NCBI GenBank assembly: GCA_944389185.1
Contig: CALXLL010000001.1
Span: forward strand, 1-64,000
Source: an uncultured Alphaproteobacteria bacterium
GTDB lineage: Bacteria > Pseudomonadota > Alphaproteobacteria > Rs-D84
Length of the DNA stretch: 64,000 nucleotides
Direction of reading: 5' to 3'
Positions 2,898 to 56,356 of the stretch are shown here, in pieces. Numbering within the stretch: the stretch's first letter is position 1; every line of letters begins with the position of its first letter. The translations under genes and the position numbers were made by a program. The notes beneath the pieces were generated by a model. The model did not search any database and was not told the origin of the DNA. It saw nothing but the letters and a program-made list of their open reading frames with translations.

Positions 2898-2917
2898 ACC
2901 GCTTTCCTTAATAATCC

Positions 2918-2946
2918 TTGCATTTCGCATTATTTCATTATAAAAT
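2918..2946 (+). promoter_or_regulatory. aspS leader promoter
   Basis: TTGCAT (2918-2923), a 17-base spacer and TAAAAT (2941-2946) form a good sigma-70 promoter. It predicts a transcript starting near 2953, immediately before the first pairing segment of the T-box leader. Confidence 0.55.
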
Positions 2947-2952
2947 CTGTTC

Positions 2953-3157
2953 CAGTTGTCCCAACTTTTATGCAGTAGGGGCACCAGTTTATGGGCGCGT
3001 TTGCGGTGATATGACTGACAACCATGGAGTAAACTAAACCCGCGTTAAGTTATAAATCAGGGTGGCACCGCGCAAATTATTTGCGCCCCTGTAATGAATC
3101 TTTTCGGGTGCCGAAATCTTTGCTTTCGTCCCCGAATAAATAATAAAAGGGACTGTT
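2953..3157 (+). promoter_or_regulatory. T-box riboswitch leader of aspS
   Basis: The T-box core AGGGTGGCACCGCG lies at 3059-3072. It folds as a canonical antiterminator: AGGG (3059-3062) pairs with CCCT (3087-3090), a 7-base bulge TGGCACC (3063-3069) follows, and GCGCAAA (3070-3076) pairs with TTTGCGC (3080-3086). The bulge TGGC is complementary to an acceptor end GCCA, that is, discriminator G, which is what tRNA-Asp carries. Upstream, GTTGTC (2955-2960) pairs with GACAAC (3017-3022) as a possible compact Stem I. GAC at 3013-3015, or at 3017-3019, could be the Asp specifier. Downstream, mutually exclusive helices (3083-3088/3106-3111 and 3105-3108/3131-3134) lead to a ribosome-binding site at 3147-3152. 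There is no T-run, suggesting translational control. The antiterminator is clear; Stem I and mechanism are tentative. Confidence 0.85.
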
Positions 3158-54850: not shown

Positions 54851-56356
54851 ATGAAATTATTTAATTTGATTTTCTTATCGTTTTTTTCCTTGCTTGTTTT
54901 GCCGGTTCGTGCAGAAAGTTTGTTCTTTGAAGACGAACCTGTGCAATTGGGGTTAAACGTTTTTGATGTATCTGATACTTTTTCAGACATTTATGAAAAA
55001 CTGGATGCTGTAAATTGGGCAGGAAAAAATATAAATGTTGCAATTGAAAGCTTGGAAAAACTTAATTCAAATGCTCATATAGCCGCCACAGACGAAAGGG
55101 TAGTCTTGGTTTGGAAAGATTCTATAATTGCAAACTATCCGCGCCCAACACCAAAAGATTGGAATGGGTTCGGTGAAATTACTACGGCCATTGTTCTTAA
55201 AATTAGGGAAAACGATCCTGCGTTTAGAAAAAAAACAGAAAGTGAAATGTATCAAGCCGTTGTTGATAGCTTGATGAAAGGTATTGACGAAAATGGTCGA
55301 TATATTTTTTCTAGGCAAGCAGAAATAAACGAAGATAATCGTATATTGACCAGTGTAGGATTGCAGGGAAATCGCGATAATCGCGGTAATTTTCGTATAT
55401 TTGGGGTTTTTAAGGGCTCGCCTGCAGATAATGCTGGAATAAAACCAGGTGATTTGATTTCTGAAATAAACGGCGTTTCAATTAAAAATATATCCGATTC
55501 TGAATTAAATGATGTTTTGTCTGGGTATAATTCTTCTACTTCAAAAATAAAACTTTTAACTCCTGCCGGTAATCAAGACGTGGTATTAAGAAAAGCAAGC
55601 GTTATATTAGCTGATTCTGATATCGTGTATAGAAATGCTGACGATGAAAATGCAGTGCTTGAAATCATTGTTCATAAAATATCTGATGGGGCAGTTGATA
55701 TTATAAAAGAAGCTTTAAATAAATACCCAAATGCAACTGGTATTATTCTTGATTTACGCTCTGCAACCGGTGACGATGAAAAAGCAGCAGCAAAATTGGC
55801 AGGGTTGTTTATCGGTAAAAATCCTGTAATGAGAATCGTAGAAACTGCAAAAGATGAAGTAGAGGTTGTCCCAGGGGGCGATGCCGTCACAGATGCACCT
55901 GTTGTTGTATTAATGTCTAATATGACGCGTGGAACGGCAGAAGCCGTTGTTGCTAGCTTTTATGAAAATCAGCGCGGCGTTTTGGTCGGAACACCTACGG
56001 CAGGTCAGGCAAGAATTGCTTCAAGAATAAATCTTGATAATGGCGGCGCTTTGGAATTGCTTAATAAAGCTATTAAAACAGGTTCCGGAAAAATAATTGA
56101 TGGCAGAGGCGTTTTTCCAATAGTCTGCTTGTCTAATATAAGAACTGCAAGCCAACAAAATGCTTTCTTTTTAAACGTTGTAAATAATGATTTTAATTTT
56201 CAAGATTTTAATAAAGACGATTCTATTAACCCAGAAAGTATAAGAAAGGGTTGCCCCGTCATAACTAGTGGAAAAGACGAAGATGCCGTGTCTATGGCGG
56301 TTTCTGCAAAAATATTAACTGATAAGAAACTTTATAATAAACTAATAGCTGAATAG
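54851..56356 (+). CDS. S41 (C-terminal processing) peptidase homologue, catalytic residues missing
   Basis: A 501-residue exported protein with a signal peptide cleaved near VRA-ES (21-22). A PDZ domain (FGVFKGSPADNAGIKPGDLISEINGVSI, about 184-211) and the S41 fold (ATGIILDLRSATG at 295-307, VVVLMSNMTRGTAEAV at 351-366, GVLVGTPTAGQAR at 376-388) are clear. In active Ctp enzymes a Ser-x-Ser-Glu region and a Lys 25 residues later form the catalytic dyad. Here the aligned positions are Gly361 and Gln386, so both are lost. It is probably a non-proteolytic scaffold or regulator (inference). It is 33 bases after secF and 10 before the PAP2 gene. Confidence 0.85.
   Translation: MKLFNLIFLSFFSLLVLPVRAESLFFEDEPVQLGLNVFDVSDTFSDIYEKLDAVNWAGKNINVAIESLEKLNSNAHIAATDERVVLVWKDSIIANYPRPTPKDWNGFGEITTAIVLKIRENDPAFRKKTESEMYQAVVDSLMKGIDENGRYIFSRQAEINEDNRILTSVGLQGNRDNRGNFRIFGVFKGSPADNAGIKPGDLISEINGVSIKNISDSELNDVLSGYNSSTSKIKLLTPAGNQDVVLRKASVILADSDIVYRNADDENAVLEIIVHKISDGAVDIIKEALNKYPNATGIILDLRSATGDDEKAAAKLAGLFIGKNPVMRIVETAKDEVEVVPGGDAVTDAPVVVLMSNMTRGTAEAVVASFYENQRGVLVGTPTAGQARIASRINLDNGGALELLNKAIKTGSGKIIDGRGVFPIVCLSNIRTASQQNAFFLNVVNNDFNFQDFNKDDSINPESIRKGCPVITSGKDEDAVSMAVSAKILTDKKLYNKLIAE

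Follow-up and report, generated by a model that had tools for sequence, protein, structure and literature searches.

T-box riboswitches have been surveyed in Firmicutes, Actinobacteria, Chloroflexi and Deinococcus-Thermus, and among Proteobacteria only in front of leuA of the deltaproteobacterial Geobacter and Pelobacter (PMC2494555, PMC3766115). Four classes are distinguished: class I combines a long Stem I with Stem II, class II has the long Stem I but no Stem II, class III a short Stem I that requires Stem II, and class IV is intermediate (PMC10482949). The interdigitated double T-loop motif (IDTM) and the Stem II S-turn, singly or together, strengthen the binding of tRNA, with a short Stem I needing Stem II (PMC10482949, PMC7583486); in vitro, hardly any tRNA was bound when Stem I was truncated and Stem II absent (PMC7583486). 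Here we describe the leader of aspS, the gene for aspartyl-tRNA synthetase (AspRS), in a 64,000-nucleotide window (positions 1 to 64,000 of contig CALXLL010000001.1, assembly GCA_944389185.1) from an uncultured alphaproteobacterium. This leader is very probably a minimal T-box riboswitch acting on translation; its short Stem I without Stem II is the missing combination, and fits none of the four described classes. The source is a genome-reduced gut bacterium of the 'Ca. Enterousia' type in GTDB order Rs-D84, with a genome of 796 kb in 15 contigs (96.85% complete). The genus Candidatus Enterousia is placed in that order and has genomes near 1 Mb (PMC12306168). We found no earlier report of an alphaproteobacterial T-box in the open-access literature searched, a scope outside which several key distribution papers lie.

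Judged from its sequence, the region 2993-3091 upstream of aspS forms a T-box sensor, and the leader downstream of the core, up to 3157, is the expression platform. A preliminary description of this DNA had proposed a T-box regulating aspS, and its core AGGGTGGCACCGCG (3059-3072) and the complementary CCCT (3087-3090) lie exactly where it had placed them, with the seven-nucleotide bulge TGGCACC at 3063-3069. Searched by cmscan with an E-value threshold, the Rfam model RF00230 aligns end to end (model positions 1-219) with 2941-3093 at 29.3 bits (E 6.9e-5), which bears out the proposed identity below the gathering threshold of 93 bits. At Rfam gathering scores the window returns two tRNAs only and nothing at the aspS leader; a score of 29 bits is far under the cut-off, so standard annotation misses this element. 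Scanning genome contigs with the AspRS protein gave 80 aspS loci (76-93% identity). Nearly all carry the label of uncultured alphaproteobacteria or proteobacteria; many come from animal guts and several are named Candidatus Enterousia. In all 80, GGGTGGCACCGCGC stands shortly upstream of aspS, far more than chance would give, upholding both the T-box and aspS as its gene. A covariance model (R1) was built from 70 leaders, and the covariation figures and per-position counts given below are those of the same 70. Within the window the aspS leader reaches 105 bits with this model, the next best site reaching 12.5 bits and nothing else being better than E 0.18; it matches the whole genome once, as expected from the earlier claim that the T-box is limited to aspS, and is found in 82 of the 86 genomes assigned to the same genus (counted from the results table). 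A second RF00230 match in this genome (window positions 55215-55399, 13.8 bits, E 0.35) was taken as chance, and the leader model gives none there.

The traits common to T-boxes are present, namely a seven-nucleotide UGGN-ACC bulge between two helices, a Stem I with a kink-turn (GA motif) at its base, a gene-matched specifier followed by a purine, UGGN complementary to the discriminator-CCA end, and an amino-acid-related gene downstream. A chance resemblance or assembly contamination would be in keeping with a score under the curated RF00230 cut-off (29.3 bits vs 93), but the element recurs in many independent assemblies from several hosts, always before aspS, and is also found in a single-contig chromosome of 1.0 Mb (L047, OX097180.1); conservation already refutes this explanation, whose probability we regard as negligible.

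The sensor is compact: Stem I, linker and antisequestrator together span 96-109 nucleotides (about 100; Table 1). Covariation over the whole structure is 0.503, against 0.198 ± 0.010 for shuffles and at most 0.133 for slid structures, kinship inflating the comparison with shuffles and not that with slid structures, and 90.9% of cells are paired. Three of the four GA/GA bases of the kink-turn are invariant and the fourth is G in 68/70 leaders, while the position directly above them switches in step between U-G, C-C and A-A. In the antisequestrator the outer helix is paired in 100% of cells and its pairs vary in both partners (A-U to C-G and G-C; C-G to U-A), with the bulge and inner pairs invariant. 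Stem I and the antisequestrator are joined by a linker of 15-21 nucleotides (median 16; AAGUUAUAAA in the window), in which AAGU.A.AA is nearly invariant and unpaired, and into which, in the 70 leaders, no Stem II, S-turn, pseudoknot or Stem III fits.

Table 1 Features of the aspS leader and gene, in window coordinates.
Feature	Position	Strand	Basis or detail
Promoter-like site (inferred): CTTGCA 2917-2922, 16 nt, TATAAA 2939-2944	2917-2944	+	sequence
Stem I, 49 nt	2993-3041	+	covariation, 70 leaders
Stem I base helix	GGG 2993-2995 / CCC 3039-3041	+	covaries freely
Stem I C-helix	GTTTGC 2999-3004 / GTAAAC 3029-3034	+	91% of cells paired; 6/6 pairs changed on both sides
Stem I kink-turn	3-nt bulge 3005-3007; tandem GA 3008-3009 with GA 3027-3028	+	70 leaders
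Stem I upper helix, four pairs	TATG 3010-3013 / CATG 3023-3026	+	
Apical specifier loop ACTGACAAC, 9 nt	3014-3022	+	specifier GAC (Asp) 3017-3019, then purine A3020
Linker between Stem I and antisequestrator, contains AAGTTATAAAT	3042-3057	+	conserved, unpaired
Antisequestrator: CAGGG 3058-3062 / CCCTG 3087-3091, bulge TGGCACC 3063-3069, GCGCAAA 3070-3076 / TTTGCGC 3080-3086	3058-3091	+	
C of UGGC, predicted partner of discriminator G73	3066	+	own tRNA ends
Platform hairpin: GGGTGCC 3106-3112 (strand 3) with strand around GTCCCC 3128-3133 (strand 4)	3106-3133	+	
Shine-Dalgarno GGGAC, complementary to GTCCC 3128-3132	3149-3153	+	
aspS, aspartate--tRNA ligase, 589 aa	3158-4927	+	NF001750 749 bits, TIGR00459 594 bits, both above cut-off

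Compared with the closest described systems, the aspS leader resembles the translational class III T-boxes with ultrashort Stem I found before ileS of Nocardia farcinica and Mycobacterium tuberculosis, with which it shares a short, kink-turned Stem I carrying the specifier in its apical loop, the lack of an IDTM, the seven-nucleotide bulge and, probably, sequestration of the Shine-Dalgarno (SD) sequence. It differs from them in lacking Stem III and the Stem II S-turn and IIA/B pseudoknot that are reported as required in class III, in its Asp/Asn rather than Ile specificity, in a loop of 9 rather than 5-6 nucleotides, in an additional relay hairpin before the SD and in its alphaproteobacterial host. 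The class II glyQS T-box of Bacillus subtilis likewise has a single-stranded linker in place of Stem II; it is transcriptional, however, and has a long Stem I with a distal, elbow-binding IDTM, where the ultrashort Stem I of aspS measures 49 nucleotides and ends in the 9-nucleotide loop. The antiterminator AGGGUGGNACCGCG...CCCU and the kink-turn GA motif are common to aspS and RF00230, a model of mostly class I members; nothing here corresponds to its positions for distal Stem I, Stem II and Stem III. The leuA T-boxes of Geobacter and Pelobacter are also proteobacterial in the broad sense, but are described as typical T-box elements and belong to another gene and another bacterial class (PMC2494555).

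It is likely that the aspS leader represents a fifth architecture among T-boxes, sensing tRNA in about 100 nucleotides with neither IDTM nor Stem II. It would have arisen by loss of Stem II in an alphaproteobacterial lineage with order-wide aminoacyl-tRNA synthetase T-boxes, and its specifier would have shifted between Asp and Asn because both tRNAs are served by a single AspRS. The T-box reading of the preliminary description thus stands, although it had missed the absence of Stem II and distal Stem I, the GAC specifier in the hairpin loop and the probable translational control. As a leader lacking IDTM and Stem II is nonetheless kept genus-wide, the minimum for tRNA decoding by RNA becomes testable in about 100 nucleotides. 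Within the minimal T-box reading, it is conceivable, though somewhat less probable than not, that the sensor is class III-like with an unrecognised tRNA-contacting element, the linker AAGUnAUAAA or a protein, replacing Stem II. The near invariance of an unpaired linker and the requirement for Stem II in class III (PMC10482949) speak for this; S-turn or pseudoknot-like pairing is impossible in 15-21 nucleotides, so any such element would have to be of another kind. A decaying T-box that no longer senses tRNA would accord with genome reduction and with a Stem II that basal relatives keep and one clade has lost. We consider decay very improbable, since strong covariation, an invariant bulge and kink-turn, and a specifier that across many species is never other than GAC or AAC argue for ongoing selection.

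The specifier loop has the consensus N-Y-Y-R-A-C-R-M-N, in which A and C of the codon are invariant and the first base is G in 58 leaders and A in 12, giving GAC or AAC, respectively, with a purine next in 70/70. Only these Asp and Asn codons were seen among 91 sequences counted from genomes (GAC 77, AAC 14). An alternative frame at loop positions 7-9 is less coherent and would bring in Thr (ACC). The tRNA-Asp(GUC) and tRNA-Asn(GUU) of this genome both carry G73 and end in GCCA, complementary to the bulge UGGC, so the proposed match between the bulge C and the discriminator G of tRNA-Asp holds. The genome contains gatB (482 bits), no asnS above cut-off (the best match being lysS), and no second AspRS was found in it. 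AspRS and GatCAB together make Asn-tRNA in genomes of such composition. The lack of an asnS above cut-off and the presence of gatB suggest that the AspRS probably charges tRNA-Asn as well as tRNA-Asp, and both GAC and AAC would then fit aspS. Uncharged tRNA-Asp, or tRNA-Asn in some relatives, appears to be read by a leader that has neither of the two tRNA-gripping parts of the described classes. A tie between AAC and a missing second AspRS was unsupported, with 9 GAC and 5 AAC where the second enzyme is present and 68 GAC and 9 AAC where it is absent. The Asp/Asn switch on a single gene offers a natural experiment on sensing by a synthetase that probably charges two tRNAs.

Between the antisequestrator and the SD lies a platform hairpin of the shape GGGTGCC...GGCGCCC. 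Strand 3 covaries with strand 4, and strand 4 with the SD. Duplex energies of strand 3 with its own strand 4 (-15.7, against -13.2 ± 0.27 for swapped partners) and of strand 4 with its own SD (-6.44, against -5.61 ± 0.16) were reached in 0/10000 permutations each; the latter test used the proximal strand only, as GGGTGCC itself resembles an anti-SD. Matched SD/strand 4 pairs include GGCGA/TCGCC, GGTGT/ACACC and GGGCG/CGCCC, besides GGGAC/GTCCC in the window. The relay hairpin is missing in seven leaders, which have GCGCCCC(C) there shortly before the SD. That is the arrangement of actinobacterial translational T-boxes. In some species (L073, L077, L090, L105) palindromic inserts such as TCCCACTTCGCCAAGGCTTTGTGGGA lie between platform and SD; the window has none.

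The platform hairpin and anti-SD strand point to translational control. From the T-box family we infer tRNA binding, sensing of aminoacylation and the direction of control, and we propose a strand relay, which would run from the antisequestrator 3' strand through GGGTGCC and the anti-SD to the SD. The short kink-turned Stem I would present GAC in its hairpin loop for pairing with the tRNA-Asp anticodon and, if the tRNA is uncharged, its GCCA end would pair with UGGC and stabilise the antisequestrator. The 3' strand GCGCCCC would then be unavailable to GGGUGCC, which would be free to pair with the anti-SD strand, leaving the ribosome site open for AspRS to be made. With charged tRNA-Asp, GCGCCCC would instead pair with GGGUGCC, and the anti-SD strand would be released onto the SD, lowering translation.

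Several points weigh against this scheme. Minimum-energy folding did not reveal two clean states: Stem I with the antisequestrator gives -41.2 kcal/mol, Stem I with the 2-3 and 4-SD pairings -37.9 and the unconstrained fold -48.1, and the folding z-score of the leader against shuffles is near zero. Strand 2 (GCGCCCC) is invariant, and pairing of strands 2 and 3 consequently lacks covariation support. The permutations of the platform strands were not corrected for kinship. Finally, published T-boxes with a short Stem I need Stem II to bind tRNA (PMC7583486, PMC10482949); in its absence, binding may be weak or may depend on some novel contact.

The same sensor could instead control transcription, through a terminator (intrinsic or Rho-dependent), and not access to the ribosome site. 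The window contains a weak terminator-like hairpin, TTTCGGGTGCCGAAA, at 3102-3116 (1 found, 0.6 expected), and clear terminators occur in T-boxes of other alphaproteobacteria, before the tyrosyl-tRNA synthetase gene (TyrRS; L114, L116) and aroF (L117). Against this, the leaders inspected have A-rich sequence and no U-tract after the platform hairpin, and an intrinsic-terminator switch was rejected on that ground; moreover, the SD covaries with an upstream strand, and the aspS leaders of two families outside Rs-D84 (f94, f95) pass straight from antisequestrator to SD without a terminator. We therefore hold transcriptional control to be unlikely and favour translational control.

The T-box is no rarity of one genome, a point that the preliminary description had missed: RF00230 matches at E <= 0.05 in 160 of the 201 genomes sampled from Rs-D84, and 0/201 reach the cut-off, so the standard Rfam threshold hides the T-boxes of a whole order and T-boxes extend into the Alphaproteobacteria. 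The 70-leader model is narrower, with weak matches in three other Rs-D84 genomes and none in the sampled genomes of the class outside the order. A class-wide RF00230 scan (385 genomes) found matches in three families outside Rs-D84, before aspS in f94 and f95 and before a DAHP synthase-like gene in f120. The aspS leaders of f94, f95 and four Rs-D84 genomes (G200, G107, G001, G014) have an ultrashort Stem I, keep Stem II and show S-turn-like and pseudoknot-like elements. In the AspRS tree all sampled Stem II-less aspS leaders fall in one group (support 97/97) nested within the AspRS of Rs-D84, the forms with Stem II branching basally, making a single loss of Stem II the simplest reading. The aspS product shows 44-63% identity to AspRS in 137/142 sampled alphaproteobacterial genomes (this genome at 100% and a congener at 93% included), so that, compared with alphaproteobacterial and no Firmicutes AspRS, the gene does not look foreign.

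In Enterousia and relatives, a second AspRS (NF003483, aspartate--tRNA(Asn) ligase) is preceded by a Stem II T-box of its own specifying AAC; in L015, where this enzyme scores 423 bits (cut-off 353), the T-boxes of aspS and the second AspRS stand head to head. The second-AspRS T-box of L317 (G103, f2) seemingly lacks Stem II: its short Stem I bears GAC and is followed by a small hairpin of G and C and then the bulge, and this loss is possibly independent. T-boxes also precede an archaeal-type TyrRS (NF006330) in the Rs-D84 families f5 and f6; that of L112 has a long Stem I and is nearly canonical (90.4 bits), and those of L114 and L116 have intrinsic terminators. The T-box before the DAHP synthase-like gene of L117 (G417, f120) has a terminator and, at 110 bits, exceeds the Rfam cut-off. 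In f95 the bulge reads TGGCACA instead of TGGCACC in 3/3 genomes (L119, L120, L121), at a position that is normally invariant.

Upstream, the 3' end of a tRNA-Thr(GGU) gene (TTCTTGCTTAGGGCACCA) directly adjoins the T-box in 24/81 aspS leaders, the window counted (e.g. L032, L036, L038), suggesting that the leader may there be released by tRNA processing. The tRNA-Thr(GGU) of this genome lies elsewhere, not at aspS. Where no tRNA gene lies upstream, many relatives have hexamers like those of the promoter-like site, about as far from Stem I as here. In the window (2950-2985) and seven relatives, a promoter-like site stands where tRNA-Thr would be, together with a short stretch resembling a hairpin, TGTCCC...GGGGCACCAG, which ends like tRNA-Thr.
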